A stretch of DNA of 64,000 nt, taken from Hydrogenophaga sp. GTDB taxonomy: Bacteria > Pseudomonadota > Gammaproteobacteria > Burkholderiales > Burkholderiaceae_C. Where the stretch lies: contig NZ_JADMKB010000009.1 in NCBI RefSeq assembly GCF_018780075.1, positions 87,799 through 151,798 of the forward strand, given 5' to 3'. Below the pieces are notes generated by a model. That model had not been told where the DNA came from and searched no databases. It saw nothing but the letters and a program-made list of their open reading frames with translations. The position numbers and the translations under genes were made by a program. Positions 25,010 to 31,055 of this stretch are shown in pieces (position 1 is the stretch's first letter; every line of letters starts with the position of its first letter).

Positions 25010-27367
25010 TCACTCCGGGTCGAGCAACTGACGAACCGACTCGGCCAGCGCGTCCATGCTGTCCTGCTTGCCCAGCACATCGCTCACGCCCACCACATGT
25101 GCCTCGTTCACCAGCGACTCGTTCACGTGGCCCGACACGATGGCCATGCGCTGCGAAGGCCGCAGTTCGCGCACCGCGCGCACCAGATCGACACCACTCA
25201 TGCCCGGCATGTTCTGGTCGGTCACCAGCAGGTCGACGGGTTCCTGCGCGCGGCGAAACCAGTCCAGCGCCTCTTCGCCCGACACGAAGGTGGTCACGCG
25301 GTAGCCGTGCTTGCGCAGCAGGCGCCCCGCCAGAAACACCAGCGCCTCGTAGTCGTCCACATACACGATGTGGCGCCCCGCGGCCGCCGGGGCCGGCACC
25401 GGGCCGGACACCGGCACGGACGGTGCTTCGGCCGTGGCCGCGGTCGAGGCCAGCGGCAGGTACACGTCGAAGCGCGCGCCCTCACCCGGCACGCTGTGCA
25501 CCGCGATCGCTCCCCGGTGGGCCTTGACGATGCCGTGCACCACCGACAGGCCGAGCCCGGTGCCGCTGCCCGGCGCCTTGGTGGTGAAAAAGGGCTCGAA
25601 GATGCGGCGCTGCGTGTCGGCGCTCATGCCCGGGCCGTTGTCGGCCACGCTGAGGCAGACGTAAGTCCCCGGGTCGATGCTGCCCAGCCTCAGGGCCAGC
25701 GCCGCGTCCACCGGGGTTTCGCGCAAGGCCACGGTGATGTCGCCCGGCTTCGCGCCCATGGCTTGCCAGGCGTTGGTGCACAGGTTCATGAGCACCTGCT
25801 GGATCTGCGTGGCGTCGGCCAGCACCGGCATCGCGGCGGCGCCCAGGCGCGTGTTCAGGTGCACGCCCGCCGGCAGCAGTGAACGCAGCAGGCGCAGGGC
25901 GTCTTCCACCAGCGGCAGCAGCGGCTGGCGTTGCAGCTCCTGCGTCTGCCGTCGGCTGAAGGCGAGGATCTGCTGCACCAGCTGGCGCGCACGGATCGCG
26001 GCGCGGCTGATTTCGGTCAGGCTTTCCTGCGCCAGGTGGTCGGGCCCCACGTCCTCACGCGCGAGCGCCAGGTTGCCCAGGATCGCAGCCAGCAGGTTGT
26101 TGAAGTCGTGCGCCACGCCACCGGCCAGCGTGCCGATGGCTTCCATCTTCTGCGATTCGCGCAGCTGCGTCTCCAGCGCCCGCTGATGGGCTTCGGCGGC
26201 CTTGAGATCGGAGATGTCGGTGTGCGTGCCCACCATGCGCAGCGGCCGACCCTGGCCGTCACGGGCGATCACCATGCCGCGCGAGAGCACCCACTTCCAG
26301 CTGCCGTCCTTGCAACGGATGCGGTGCTCGTTGCGGTAGACCGGCATGTGCCCGTCGAAGTGGGCGGCACGGTCGGCCAGCATCTGCGGCACGTCGTCCG
26401 GGTGGGTACGGCCATCCAGCTCGTGGGCCCCGCGGAGCAGCTCGTCGTCCGCGTACCCGTACATGGCCTTGATGCGCGGCGACACGTACTCCTCCCCGGT
26501 GCCGATGTTCCAGTCCCACACGCCATCGCCCGCGCTGTCCAGCGCCAGCTTCCACAGCGCCTCGCTTTCGTGCAGGGCGATCTCGGCCCGCTTGCGGTCG
26601 GTGATGTCGAGCAGCAGCCCCACCCGCACCTGCCCGCCCGCCTCGCGCGCCACCGTGTCCGAGCGCCGGTACAGCCAGCGCTCGGTGCCGTCGGGCAGGA
26701 CGATGCGGTACTCGAACCCGATGTCCGGCAGACCGTCATGGATGCGGCGGATGTGGTCGGCAAACCGGGGCGCGTCGTCGGGATGGCGGTAGCGCGAGAG
26801 CACGTTCGGGTCGCGCAGCACGTCCTCCGGCGTGAGCCCGTAAATCTGCCGCACCCCGGCGCTGACGAAGCGGTACGCGGGATCGCCCTCGTCGGGCACG
26901 TGCACCACGAAGACCATGCCGGGAATCTGGGTGGTCAGCAGGCGAAGGCGCTCTTCGCTGCGTGCAAGCGCCTCCTGCGCCTGCACCCGTTCGGTGATGT
27001 CCTCCACGGTGCCTTCGTAGTAGAGAACCGCACCCGCCGCGTCACGCACGGCGTGGGCATTTTCATTGATCCACAGGTGCCTACCGTCGGCGTGGCGCAC
27101 CACTTCCGAGACCAGGCCGCGCACGTACCCGTCGCGCGCCAGCAGCGCTTGAAAATGCGCACGCTGCTCCGGCGCCACATACCAGTCGCTGTGGGCCCGG
27201 TTCACATCGATCAGCATGGTGCGTTCGTCTTCATAGCCGTTGATGCGCACCAGTGCCGGGTTGGCCAGCAGCATCTCACCCGCAGCCGAGCTGCGGTAGG
27301 CACCGATGGGAAGGAACTGGAACAGCGAGGAAAAGTCCGGTGCCGGTGCCGGTGCGGATGAGGACAT
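25010..27367 (-). CDS. multi-PAS hybrid histidine kinase with C-terminal receiver
   Basis: 785 residues, no transmembrane segment, so cytosolic. The order is PAS1 (about 10-130), PAS2 (about 145-260), PAS3 (about 275-400) with PAC-type ends (EDITERVQ, LDITDRKRAE, THTDISDLKAAE). HisKA follows (GGVAHDFNNLLAAILGNLAL, phospho-His), then HATPase_c (NLCTNAWQAMG, DNGPGMS, GSGTGLGLSVVHG), and a receiver domain (VDDYEAL, Asp in VTDQNMPG, Lys in VLGKQD). The start ATG gives MSSSAPAPAPDF. There is no partner regulator next to it, so it is an orphan hybrid kinase. The signal is unknown; none of the PAS domains shows an obvious haem or flavin signature that I can be sure of. Confidence 0.92.
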   Translation of the reverse strand: MSSSAPAPAPDFSSLFQFLPIGAYRSSAAGEMLLANPALVRINGYEDERTMLIDVNRAHSDWYVAPEQRAHFQALLARDGYVRGLVSEVVRHADGRHLWINENAHAVRDAAGAVLYYEGTVEDITERVQAQEALARSEERLRLLTTQIPGMVFVVHVPDEGDPAYRFVSAGVRQIYGLTPEDVLRDPNVLSRYRHPDDAPRFADHIRRIHDGLPDIGFEYRIVLPDGTERWLYRRSDTVAREAGGQVRVGLLLDITDRKRAEIALHESEALWKLALDSAGDGVWDWNIGTGEEYVSPRIKAMYGYADDELLRGAHELDGRTHPDDVPQMLADRAAHFDGHMPVYRNEHRIRCKDGSWKWVLSRGMVIARDGQGRPLRMVGTHTDISDLKAAEAHQRALETQLRESQKMEAIGTLAGGVAHDFNNLLAAILGNLALAREDVGPDHLAQESLTEISRAAIRARQLVQQILAFSRRQTQELQRQPLLPLVEDALRLLRSLLPAGVHLNTRLGAAAMPVLADATQIQQVLMNLCTNAWQAMGAKPGDITVALRETPVDAALALRLGSIDPGTYVCLSVADNGPGMSADTQRRIFEPFFTTKAPGSGTGLGLSVVHGIVKAHRGAIAVHSVPGEGARFDVYLPLASTAATAEAPSVPVSGPVPAPAAAGRHIVYVDDYEALVFLAGRLLRKHGYRVTTFVSGEEALDWFRRAQEPVDLLVTDQNMPGMSGVDLVRAVRELRPSQRMAIVSGHVNESLVNEAHVVGVSDVLGKQDSMDALAESVRQLLDPE

Positions 27368-27477
27368 GCCCGTATTCTGGGCGAAACACCCCGCCAGTGC
27401 TCGCGCTGCCGGGTGTTCAGACCCCGGGTGAACAGCTAAAGTGCAGGCCAATCCCGCCTTTTTTTGACAGGTTCCCC

Positions 27478-28116
27478 TTGCAAGTCACCCGCATCCTCGC
27501 CGTGCGCCACGGCGAAACCGAATGGAACCGCGACACCCGCATCCAGGGCCACACCGACATCGGGCTCAACGCGCGCGGTCGCCGCCAGGCCGAGCTGCTC
27601 GCGCGGGCCCTGCGCGACGAACCCATCGCGGCCTTCTACGCCAGCGACCTGAGCCGCGCCCTGGAGACCGCACAGGCGGTGGCCCGAACGCGCGGGCAGA
27701 CCGTGGCCACGCACACCGGCCTGCGCGAGCGCGCCTTCGGCCGCTTCGAAGGCCAGACCTGGGCCGACCTGGAGGCGCGCTGGCCCGAGGACGCGCTGTC
27801 CTGGCGCAAACGCGTGCCCGACTTCGTGCCCGCGGGCGGCGAGTCGCTGCTGCAGTTGCGCGAGCGCGTGGTCGCCACGGTCGAAGAACTGGCCGCGCAG
27901 CACCCCGGCGAGCAGGTGATGATGGTCGCGCACGGTGGTGTGCTGGACATCCTCTACCGCGCCGCGACCCGGCTGGAGCTGCAGGCGCCGCGCAGCTGGG
28001 ACCTCTCCAACACCGCCATCAACCGCCTGCTCTGGTCGCCCGAGGGCCTGAGCCTGGTGGGCTGGGCCGACACCTCGCACCTGCAGGACGGATCGCTCGA
28101 TGAAAGCACCACCTGA
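27478..28116 (+). CDS. histidine phosphatase family protein (GpmB/CobC-like)
   Basis: 212 residues from TTG (QVTRILAVRHGETEWN). The RHGE motif with the phospho-His is near residue 10. YASDLSRALETAQ, RERAFGRFEGQTW and VAHGGVLDILYRA (second His) complete the pattern. It is a cytosolic phosphomonoesterase or mutase-like enzyme; the substrate cannot be deduced. The 3' end overlaps the next gene by 17 bases, suggesting coupled translation. Confidence 0.88.
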   Translation: MQVTRILAVRHGETEWNRDTRIQGHTDIGLNARGRRQAELLARALRDEPIAAFYASDLSRALETAQAVARTRGQTVATHTGLRERAFGRFEGQTWADLEARWPEDALSWRKRVPDFVPAGGESLLQLRERVVATVEELAAQHPGEQVMMVAHGGVLDILYRAATRLELQAPRSWDLSNTAINRLLWSPEGLSLVGWADTSHLQDGSLDESTT

Positions 28117-29266
28117 GCGCTGGCCCCACGCGCAGGCGTGGGTCGGCCAGGGCGTGGCCGCCATCGACACGCCCTCGCTGGTCATCGACCTTGACGCCAT
28201 GGAGCGCAACCTCGCGCGCATGGCCGCGTTCGCGCGCGAGCGCGGGCTGCGCCTGCGGCCCCACGCCAAGCTGCACAAAAGCGCCGAGCTGTCCCGGCTG
28301 CAGATGGCGCAGGGCGCGGTCGGCGTATGCGTGCAGAAGACCGAAGAGGCCCTGCGGCTCGCGGCGGCGGGCGTGGGCGACATCTTCATCAGCAACGAGG
28401 TGATCGCGCCGGCCAAGCTGGCGCGGCTGGCTTCTGCGGTGCGCGAACGGACCACCCGGTTCGCCATCGCGGTGGACTGCGCGGAGGGCATTGACCGGCT
28501 GGCGGCGGCGCTGCACGGCGCGGGCGTGACCGAGGCGGCGGCCATCGACGTGTTCGTCGAAATCGACGTCGGCCAGGGCCGCTGCGGCGTGGCGCCGGGC
28601 GAGGCGGCGCTCGCGCTGGTGCGGCGCATCCACCAGCACCCGGCGCTGCGCTGGGCCGGCCTGCAGGCTTACCACGGCGGCGCGCAACACCGGCGCGGCG
28701 CGGCCGAACGCGCGGAGACCATCGCCGCCTCGGCCCAGGCCGTGCGCCACACGCTCGATGCGCTGCGCCAGCAGGGTTTCGAGGCCCCGCTGGTCACGGG
28801 CGCGGGCACCGGCAGCCTGGTGCACGAGGCCGCCAGCGGCCTTTGGGGCGAGCTGCAGGCAGGCTCTTACCTGTTCATGGACGCCGACTACGCGGCCAAC
28901 GAACGAGACGCGGCATCGCCGGTGTTCGAACACGCGCTGTTCGTCAAATCACAGGTCATGAGTTGCAGCGCCGACCGCGCCATCTGCGACGCCGGCCACA
29001 AGAGCCACGCCATCGACAGCGGCCTGCCGCAGGTCGCGCACCCCGCCGGCCTGGTGTTCGCCAACGGCGGTGACGAACACGGCGTGCTGCGCACCGCCGC
29101 CGCCGGCGCGCCGCTGCCCGCGCTGGGCGACACGGTCTGGCTGATCCCCGGCCACTGCGACCCCACGGTCAACCTGCACGACTTTTTTGTCGGTGTGCGC
29201 GGCGGCCTGAGCGACGGCCGCGTCGAGCGCCTGATCACCATCGACACGCGCGGCGCGCTGACATGA
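28100..29266 (+). CDS. DSD1-family PLP enzyme (D-threonine aldolase / D-serine dehydratase-like)
   Basis: 388 residues, alanine-racemase-like fold type III. DTPSLVIDLDAMERNLARMA and LRPHAKLHKSAEL carry the PLP Lys (HAK). Later VTGAGTGSLVHE and a C-terminal metal site (PGHCDPTVNLHD, with His and Cys) match the DSD1 group. It acts on D-amino acids such as D-threonine, 3-hydroxyaspartate or D-serine. The ATG lies inside the phosphatase gene. Immediately after its stop sits a type-B repeat leading to the ether-lipid fusion gene, so the three genes may form one transcript. Confidence 0.87.
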   Translation: MKAPPERWPHAQAWVGQGVAAIDTPSLVIDLDAMERNLARMAAFARERGLRLRPHAKLHKSAELSRLQMAQGAVGVCVQKTEEALRLAAAGVGDIFISNEVIAPAKLARLASAVRERTTRFAIAVDCAEGIDRLAAALHGAGVTEAAAIDVFVEIDVGQGRCGVAPGEAALALVRRIHQHPALRWAGLQAYHGGAQHRRGAAERAETIAASAQAVRHTLDALRQQGFEAPLVTGAGTGSLVHEAASGLWGELQAGSYLFMDADYAANERDAASPVFEHALFVKSQVMSCSADRAICDAGHKSHAIDSGLPQVAHPAGLVFANGGDEHGVLRTAAAGAPLPALGDTVWLIPGHCDPTVNLHDFFVGVRGGLSDGRVERLITIDTRGALT

Positions 29267-29327
29267 GCGCCGCCCGGCCGCTCCGAAGGCGCTCAGCACC
29301 GCAGTGCGAAGCACGGAGGGTAGCCCA
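29267..29327 (+). repeat. type-B intercistronic repeat carrying a Shine-Dalgarno
   Basis: Fills the space exactly between a TGA stop and the next GTG start. It contains GCGCCGCCCGGCCGC, a hairpin GTGC-GAA-GCAC, and GGAGGG about 7 bases before GTGAGCCC. A second copy lies at 53162-53222. The hairpin stem changes in a compensatory way between copies. Confidence 0.8.
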
Positions 29328-31055
29328 GTGAGCCCGAGCCAGGTCATCGTTCTGGCCACACCGGTTTTTCTCCTGCTCATCGCCATCGAGTTCGCCGTCG
29401 GCCTGCGCCGGGGCCACAACACCTACCGCCTGTCCGACGCGGTCTCCAGCATCGGCCTGGGCATGCTGAGCCAGGTCGCGGCCGTGTTTGCCTTGCTGCT
29501 GCGCCTGGGCATCTACACCGCCGTGTACACCCACGCCGCCCTGTGGCCCGACACGGGCTTCTGGACCACGCCGGTGGGCTGGCTGCTGGCGCTGCTGGTC
29601 TACGACTTCCTCTATTACTGGAACCACCGCCTGGGCCACCGGGTCGGTGTGCTCTGGGCCGCGCACGTGGTGCACCACCAGAGCCAGCACTACAACCTCT
29701 CCACCGCGCTGCGCCAGCCGGTGAGCTACCCGCTGCTGGGCTGGGTGTTCTACCTGCCGATGGCGCTGGCTGGCGTGCCGCCGCTGGTGTTCGTCGTGGT
29801 CGGGCTGATCGACCTGCTGTATCAGTTCTGGATCCACACCGAGCAGATCGGTTCGATGGGCCGCTTCGACCGCTGGTTCGCCTCGCCGTCCAACCACCGC
29901 GTGCACCACGGCGTGAACGATCGATACGTGGACAAGAACTACGGCGGCATCCTGATGCTGTGGGACCACCTGTTTGGCACCTTCGAGCCCGAAGACCCGC
30001 GCGAGCCCTGCGTCTACGGCACGCGCAAGCCGCTGCAGAGCTGGGACCCGGTCTGGGCCAACCTGGAGGTGTACGCCGCGCTCGCTCGCGACAGCGGGCG
30101 CGCCACGCGCTGGGGCGACAAGCTGCGCCCCTGGCTCAAGCCCCCGGGCTGGCGTGCGGCGGACGTGGCGGCGAAGCACCCGGTTGCGGCCTTTGACATC
30201 GCGGCCGTGCAGCGCTTCGACCCGCCGGTCGGGCGCGCCGTGCAGGTGTTTGCTGCGCTGCAGTTCGCGGCGCTGCTGGGCGGCGTGGCGCTGTTCCTCT
30301 GGCATGCCGACAGCCGACCCCTGCTGCACAACGCCAGCGGGGCCGGCGTGCTGCTCGCGGGCCAGTGGGCGCTGGGCGCGCTGCTGCAGGGGCGCATCAC
30401 GGCGGGCGAGCTGCTGCTGATCGAATGCGCGGCCCTCTCTGCGGCCACCGCAGCCACGGGCTGGACCACGCTGCACTGGGTGTTCAAGCCGCTGACCATG
30501 GGCATCGCGCTGGCCCTGGTGATGACGCACCGGCACTCGCGGCCGGATGCCCCGGGCAACGCCTGGCTGCTGGCCGCGCTGCTGGCGTCGCTCGCGGGCG
30601 ACGTGGCCCTGATGCTCGACGGCTTGTTCATTCCCGGCCTGGTGGCCTTCCTGCTGGCGCACATCGCCTACACCCAACGCTTCCGGCAGGACACGCCCTG
30701 GCTGCCCCGGCGCCGCGTCTGGGCCGGCGTGAGCGCGCTTGGGGCGCTGGTGTACGCGCTGCTGTGGGCCGGCGGGCTGCCGCCCGGGTTGCGGTTGCCG
30801 GTGGCGGTCTATGTGTTGGCGATCACGCTGATGGCTTCGCAGGCGCTGGGGCGCGCCAGCGTGTGGCGCGATGGGCCGTCATGCCTGGTTGCTGCCGGCG
30901 CCCTGTGCTTCATGGTGAGCGACACGCTGCTGGCCATCAACCGCTTCATCACGCCCCTGCCCGCATCGGCGCTCTGGGTACTCGGCAGCTACGGCGCCGC
31001 GCAGTGCCTGATGGTGATGGGCCTGCTGCGCGCACGGGGCGCCACGCCCGCCTGA
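29328..31055 (+). CDS. fusion of alkylglycerol-monooxygenase-like and lysoplasmalogenase (YhhN/TMEM86) domains
   Basis: 575 residues from a GTG with GGAGGG before it. Residues 1-375 form a polytopic fatty-acid-hydroxylase (sterol desaturase superfamily) domain. It has the di-iron His clusters NHRLGH (100-104), HVVHH (113-117), H170 and HRVHH (190-194). The surrounding text WAAHVVHHQSQHYNLSTALRQ and VDKNYGGILMLWDHLFGTF is diagnostic of alkylglycerol monooxygenase (AGMO/TMEM195) rather than sterol desaturases. Residues about 380-570 form a second membrane domain beginning TLHWVFKPLTM, with SLAGDVALML, GLVAFLLAHIAYTQRF and CFMVSDTLLAINRF. These are the conserved Asp-containing motifs of YhhN/TMEM86 lysoplasmalogenase. 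AGMO cleaves alkyl ethers of glycerol using a tetrahydropterin; lysoplasmalogenase hydrolyses the vinyl ether. The joint role in ether-lipid breakdown is inference; the two domains are seen directly. Confidence 0.85.
   Translation: MSPSQVIVLATPVFLLLIAIEFAVGLRRGHNTYRLSDAVSSIGLGMLSQVAAVFALLLRLGIYTAVYTHAALWPDTGFWTTPVGWLLALLVYDFLYYWNHRLGHRVGVLWAAHVVHHQSQHYNLSTALRQPVSYPLLGWVFYLPMALAGVPPLVFVVVGLIDLLYQFWIHTEQIGSMGRFDRWFASPSNHRVHHGVNDRYVDKNYGGILMLWDHLFGTFEPEDPREPCVYGTRKPLQSWDPVWANLEVYAALARDSGRATRWGDKLRPWLKPPGWRAADVAAKHPVAAFDIAAVQRFDPPVGRAVQVFAALQFAALLGGVALFLWHADSRPLLHNASGAGVLLAGQWALGALLQGRITAGELLLIECAALSAATAATGWTTLHWVFKPLTMGIALALVMTHRHSRPDAPGNAWLLAALLASLAGDVALMLDGLFIPGLVAFLLAHIAYTQRFRQDTPWLPRRRVWAGVSALGALVYALLWAGGLPPGLRLPVAVYVLAITLMASQALGRASVWRDGPSCLVAAGALCFMVSDTLLAINRFITPLPASALWVLGSYGAAQCLMVMGLLRARGATPA

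Follow-up and report, generated by a model that had tools for sequence, protein, structure and literature searches.

A putative two-domain ether-lipid enzyme in Hydrogenophaga: an AGMO-like monooxygenase fused to a YhhN lysoplasmalogenase, and its gene-coupled counterparts in Bacteroidota

Two enzyme families are known to break the ether bond of the same lyso-lipids, the characterised members of one (AGMO) cleaving alkyl ethers and those of the other (YhhN/TMEM86 lysoplasmalogenase) cleaving alkenyl ethers. Both AGMO and lysoplasmalogenase require a free sn-2 hydroxyl. A review of AGMO gives its occurrence in animals and leaves bacteria unmentioned (PMC3617469), and a report of bacterial AGMO activity was not found in the literature searched. 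Similarly, no paper describing an AGMO–YhhN pair or fusion was found in PMC, where subscription journals are sparse. Here, a gene of Hydrogenophaga sp. encoding both families in one frame was analysed within a stretch of 64,000 nucleotides (the window) and was compared with its relatives in the home family and in Bacteroidota.

Domains and conserved residues of the fusion protein

The frame at 29328-31055 (plus strand) was found to be intact, with a GTG start, zero internal stops and a GGAGG sequence ∼8 bases 5′ of the start (Table 1). The initial annotation had read its product as one protein carrying both families, and this was borne out in the 575-residue frame by Pfam, which covered the full profile of FA_hydroxylase (PF04116, E 2.2e-29, residues 85-218) as well as that of YhhN (PF07947, E 1.9e-43, residues 382-566). 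The short motifs listed at that stage (WAAHVVHH, NLSTALRQ, DKNYGG, FKPLTM, GDVALML, and SDTLLAI) were all located in the fusion protein, and the YhhN match and the Asp residues of that domain, whose absence had been named as grounds for giving up the claim, are both present. Profile searches of the home genome returned the fusion as the sole YhhN match and as one of five FA_hydroxylase matches.

Table 1. Coordinates in the window of the fusion gene, its conserved residues and its upstream neighbours
Feature	Position	Strand	Basis
Histidine phosphatase, conserved upstream neighbour (longest ORF; true start perhaps downstream)	27253..28116	+	synteny
PLP aldolase (Ala_racemase_N + D-ser_dehydrat, BhcC-like), conserved upstream neighbour	28100..29266	+	Pfam/NCBIfam, synteny
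GGAGGG, likely ribosome binding site for GTG at 29328	29315..29320	+	sequence
Fusion gene, AGMO-like monooxygenase + YhhN lysoplasmalogenase, 575 aa	29328..31055	+	ORF, Pfam, family survey
FA_hydroxylase (PF04116), residues 85-218	29580..29981	+	Pfam
His clusters 1 and 2: H100, H104, H113, H116, H117 = human AGMO H132, H136, H145, H148, H149	29625..29678	+	alignment
R105 at AGMO E137 site (tetrahydrobiopterin Km residue)	29640..29642	+	alignment
Q130 = AGMO Q162, essential in AGMO	29715..29717	+	alignment
H170 = AGMO H201	29835..29837	+	alignment
His cluster 3 H190, H193, H194 + D202, N204, Y205, W212, D213 = AGMO H221, H224, H225, D233, N235, Y236, W243, D244	29895..29966	+	alignment
Two AGMO-type C-terminal helices (303-329, 332-353) linking the halves; homologous helices persist in YhhN-only relatives	30234..30386	+	model, alignment
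Eight-helix YhhN unit, residues 359-568 (PF07947 382-566)	30402..31031	+	Pfam, model
K387 = TMEM86A K43	30486..30488	+	alignment
G424, D425 = TMEM86A G81, D82	30597..30602	+	alignment
H445 = TMEM86A H104	30660..30662	+	alignment
G524, S531, D532 = TMEM86A G182, S189, D190	30897..30923	+	alignment
Y555 = TMEM86A Y213	30990..30992	+	alignment

The essential residues of human AGMO (PMC3617469, PMC7911779) were placed on the fusion by alignment, and all 15 of them (nine His and six others) were found to be conserved, the di-iron His clusters described earlier being thereby complete. Directly after the second His, where AGMO has its tetrahydrobiopterin-binding Glu137, the home fusion has Arg105. 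Among the fusions readable at this site, 32 of 36 have Glu, as do 65 of 81 stand-alone relatives. The Pfam domain for the AGMO C-terminus, PF24858 (AGMP_C), did not match the fusion; it was weak in 10 of 38 aligned sequences, some Bacteroidota homologues among them, and two inspected members fell below its cut-off. As E137 is replaced by R105 and PF24858 fails to match, the N-terminal half is termed AGMO-like and not AGMO, and the replacement weakens the case for tetrahydropterin use by the home copy. Arg at the pterin Glu site was also present in a stand-alone AGMO-like gene of Legionella anisa (L081:7983-9200), whose genome also has YhhN at another position and matches Lipid_desat weakly.

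In the C-terminal half, the eight functionally tested residues of human TMEM86A/B, i.e., K43, G81, D82, H104, G182, S189, D190, and Y213 (PMC11994398), were all conserved in the home fusion and in nearly all other fusions. Together with the full PF07947 match and eight helices, this agrees with the complete YhhN domain that had been claimed. Structure prediction, which had been suggested as a check, was carried out with AlphaFold2 and gave one high-confidence model spanning both domains (pLDDT 94.6, pTM 0.90). It contains fifteen membrane-type helices, five from the AGMO core, two of AGMO type at its C-terminus and eight from YhhN (359-568). The first YhhN helix (359-376) aligns where stand-alone AGMO-like relatives have their third C-terminal helix; hence, the division into two halves stands as first described, with the border near residue 355 rather than at 375-380. 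A sequence search of the PDB returned no chain resembling either half, and Foldseek against the PDB, with the whole model and with the AGMO half, produced no hit at E ≤ 0.001; TM-scores were low throughout, and this outcome was given little weight.

The charges of the loops are consistent with an N-in/C-in orientation of the YhhN part, the orientation proposed for M. tuberculosis YhhN (PMC9052158). With the YhhN part so placed, the His clusters would lie at the cytosolic ends of their helices, and K387, D425, H445, D532, and Y555 would occupy the outer halves of the helices that bear them. The two active sites of the model would thus face opposite sides of the membrane, the sidedness being read from sequence position.

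Distribution of the fusion and coupling of separate genes in Bacteroidota

A survey of the spread of the fusion, which the initial annotation had called for, found the full-length protein in one frame in 49 of 301 family genomes sampled (home included), belonging to 30 genera; the carriers include Hydrogenophaga flava, two Acidovorax and further Comamonadaceae. An assembly error joining two ORFs, named beforehand as a possible undoing of the claim, is contradicted by this recurrence. Among 369 genomes sampled evenly across the class, two carried full-length fusions, both in the home family and one of them the home genome itself, and the architecture seems to be confined to one bacterial family. 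The AGMO halves of the fused proteins could share a single origin.

The conserved fusion locus follows a histidine phosphatase and a PLP aldolase. At the same locus, some relatives in the family carry an AGMO-only gene (L171, L173, L175) and others a YhhN-only gene (L159, L160, L164). The 12 YhhN-only proteins of the family (L159-L170) nest within the fusion clade in the tree, where ∼7 changes to this state are needed, at least four of them forced by well-supported branches, and several of the 12 apparently still possess the two AGMO-type C-terminal helices. The simplest reading would be one fusion event followed by several losses of the AGMO half. The retention of each half alone at the locus is evidence against an obligatory two-site machine. 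A shortened fusion (407 aa) from which the first His clusters are missing was also observed (L177:2497-3717), which is possibly a decaying copy or a frameshift. The phosphatase and BhcC-like aldolase genes (27253-29266) adjoin the fusion, AGMO-only and YhhN-only versions alike across the family.

Outside the home family, 297 Bacteroidota genomes were drawn evenly, of which 53 had a YhhN match to the query, and 50 loci were inspected. An AGMO-like gene was located directly upstream of YhhN on the same strand at 15 of these loci (14 of 49 besides the query genome), the first YhhN ATG lying at most 26 bases before and at most 14 bases after the AGMO stop (-26 to +14). Overlapping or near-touching pairs with AGMO first are exemplified by L069:7992-9873, L078:849-2747, L130, L134, L135, L138-L140, L142-L145, L147, L151, L152, and L155. 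The order of the genes is that of the domains in the fusion. The probability of such pairing by chance was crudely estimated at < 1e-20, with related genomes counted as if independent, and the paired genes occur in no fewer than three distinct AGMO subclades of the tree. At one other inspected locus, a distant FA_hydroxylase was positioned directly downstream of YhhN. That the same pair is gene-coupled in Bacteroidota argues strongly, at the level of gene organization, for a functional link between AGMO-like and YhhN proteins.

In alignments, the coupled Bacteroidota AGMO-like genes were found to have Gln at the E137 site in 13 of 17 cases and His at the Y236 site in 16 of 17, a hint that cofactor or chemistry may have shifted in this clade. 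Upstream of the pair in the three loci examined (L214, L216, L218) are genes of 91 aa and 277-288 aa, identified in L214 as ClpS and PrmA. Other arrangements noted were a Roseivirga genome with two AGMO-like paralogues in tandem (L034:7971-10550) and a Bacteroidota-type AGMO-like gene (L041:7947-9200) in a MAG named Thalassobius (Pseudomonadota), reflecting either transfer or a binning error.

Proposed activities and alternative readings

It is moderately likely that the fusion is a two-activity enzyme which degrades lyso-alkyl and lyso-alkenyl lipids at two independent sites. The protein would reside in the inner membrane, and its AGMO-like di-iron site, at the cytosolic face, would oxidise C1 of the 1-O-alkyl chain of an alkylglycerol or lyso-alkyl-phospholipid; the unstable hemiacetal so formed would give a fatty aldehyde and glycerol or a glycerophospho-compound. 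Closer to the outer face, the YhhN site with its eight helices would act on lysoplasmalogen, breaking the 1-O-alkenyl bond by hydrolysis and releasing an aldehyde and a like polar product. Given the requirement of both enzyme types for a free sn-2 hydroxyl, one protein would handle saturated as well as vinyl lyso-ethers and so cover the main kinds of lyso-ether lipid, its role possibly being carbon scavenging and detoxification of ether lipids from outside. Both reactions, their membrane sides and the exogenous source of the substrate are probable deductions from homology and setting, and the electron donor would be tetrahydropterin in most homologues and less certainly so in the home copy owing to R105.

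The bifunctional ether-lipid enzyme of the initial annotation is supported by the complete domains, the conserved catalytic residues and the Bacteroidota pair; its further proposal that the released aldehyde is handed off was not sustained. Aldehyde is the end product of both reactions, and direct transfer is unsupported because the sites are modelled on opposite faces and the halves repeatedly occur alone. Among the neighbours scanned (PrmA, ClpS, FKBP, MoxR, phosphatase, aldolase), no aldehyde-handling gene was found. The nearby FolM/FolB genes, earlier linked tentatively to a tetrahydropterin supply, were rejected as a dedicated cofactor operon, being part of general synteny that is also present in Acidovorax (L009). 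Adjacent genes for PhhA and PhhB are present in the home genome, and hence tetrahydropterin is probably made and recycled in it. The family of the aerobic plasmalogen desaturase (Lipid_desat, CarF/PEDS1, PF10520) gave no match in the home genome while matching a myxobacterial positive control, which fits a substrate acquired from outside.

Against the two-ether reading stand R105, the missing PF24858 match and synteny partners (phosphatase, aldolase, PrmA, ClpS) that give no pointer to lipid metabolism. Members of the di-iron superfamily also catalyse other reactions and act on other lipids, which likewise counts against it. The N-terminal half might act on another membrane lipid, such as ornithine lipid, a hopanoid or a fatty acyl chain, with the YhhN fusion reflecting shared lipid turnover, and R105 and the absence of AGMP_C would suit this unlikely alternative. 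OlsE, the sole name given by NCBIfam, points the same way, yet weakly, NF052566 scoring 66 bits where its equivalog cut-off is 475, by which OlsE identity is ruled out. As a control, three of the four other FA_hydroxylases of the home genome could be aligned, the fourth lying outside the profile search; all three keep the His, W, and D residues and at most two each of Q162, D233, N235, and Y236. The fusion has all four of these AGMO-distinguishing essential residues, a set that no alignable home paralogue holds jointly, and the pairing with YhhN recurs across two phyla, both of which oppose an unrelated lipid substrate.

A still less probable arrangement is that the halves act in sequence, the di-iron half desaturating lyso-alkyl lipid at C1′ to a vinyl ether that the YhhN half hydrolyses. 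Consecutive steps are often marked by fusions and coupled gene pairs, the order of AGMO before YhhN is common to the fusion and the operons, and related membrane di-iron enzymes are able to desaturate. The change of the pterin Glu to Gln in most coupled Bacteroidota genes and to Arg in the home fusion would also suit such chemistry, as would the lack of the known plasmanyl desaturase in the home genome. However, every AGMO essential residue is kept, AGMO-only and YhhN-only genes at the same locus retain each half without the other, and the modelled sites lie at opposite faces. If true, the scheme would constitute an alkyl-ether cleavage route without pterin-dependent hydroxylation and would account for the coupled pairs in which the pterin Glu has been replaced.

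Fusions sometimes take up dead domains, and the YhhN half could have lost its enzymatic activity and serve the monooxygenase as a scaffold in the membrane or as a sensor of substrate; this is highly improbable given the eight TMEM86 residues kept in the fusions and the repeated survival of YhhN where the AGMO half has been lost. An assembly artefact or chance readthrough of adjacent genes, brought to mind by the two adjacent genes of the Bacteroidota relatives, is negligible, being already refuted by one frame in 49 independent genomes and by the high-confidence single model.

Comparison with known systems

The fused or gene-coupled set of an AGMO-like protein and a lysoplasmalogenase, of which the separate Bacteroidota genes coupled in fusion order are new here, provides genetic evidence for two ether-cleaving activities working as one unit. 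The fusion, together with pairs in a distant phylum, suggests that bacteria routinely join both routes of ether-lipid clearing. AGMO has so far resisted purification, and the bacterial homologues, in which the pterin Glu is often present and in a few cases missing, could serve as laboratory-friendly material for cofactor tests and structure determination.

Similar to AGMO/TMEM195 (EC 1.14.16.5), the fusion has the FA_hydroxylase domain, the 15 essential residues (nine of them His), and C-terminal membrane helices, and most of its bacterial relatives keep the pterin Glu. Unlike AGMO, the home fusion has Arg at the pterin Glu, is without a PF24858 match and is joined to YhhN. With OlsE, the ornithine lipid hydroxylase, it shares the FA_hydroxylase superfamily and His pattern. 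The CarF/TMEM189 plasmanyl desaturase (PF10520), found in other bacteria and in animals, also acts on ether lipids and belongs to a different family. The full PF07947 domain, the eight conserved residues, the eight helices and the probable N-in/C-in orientation are comparable to those of the YhhN/TMEM86 lysoplasmalogenases (EC 3.3.2.2), which include YhhN of Legionella pneumophila and M. tuberculosis; the known bacterial YhhN proteins stand alone, whereas here YhhN is the C-terminal partner in a fusion with a monooxygenase.
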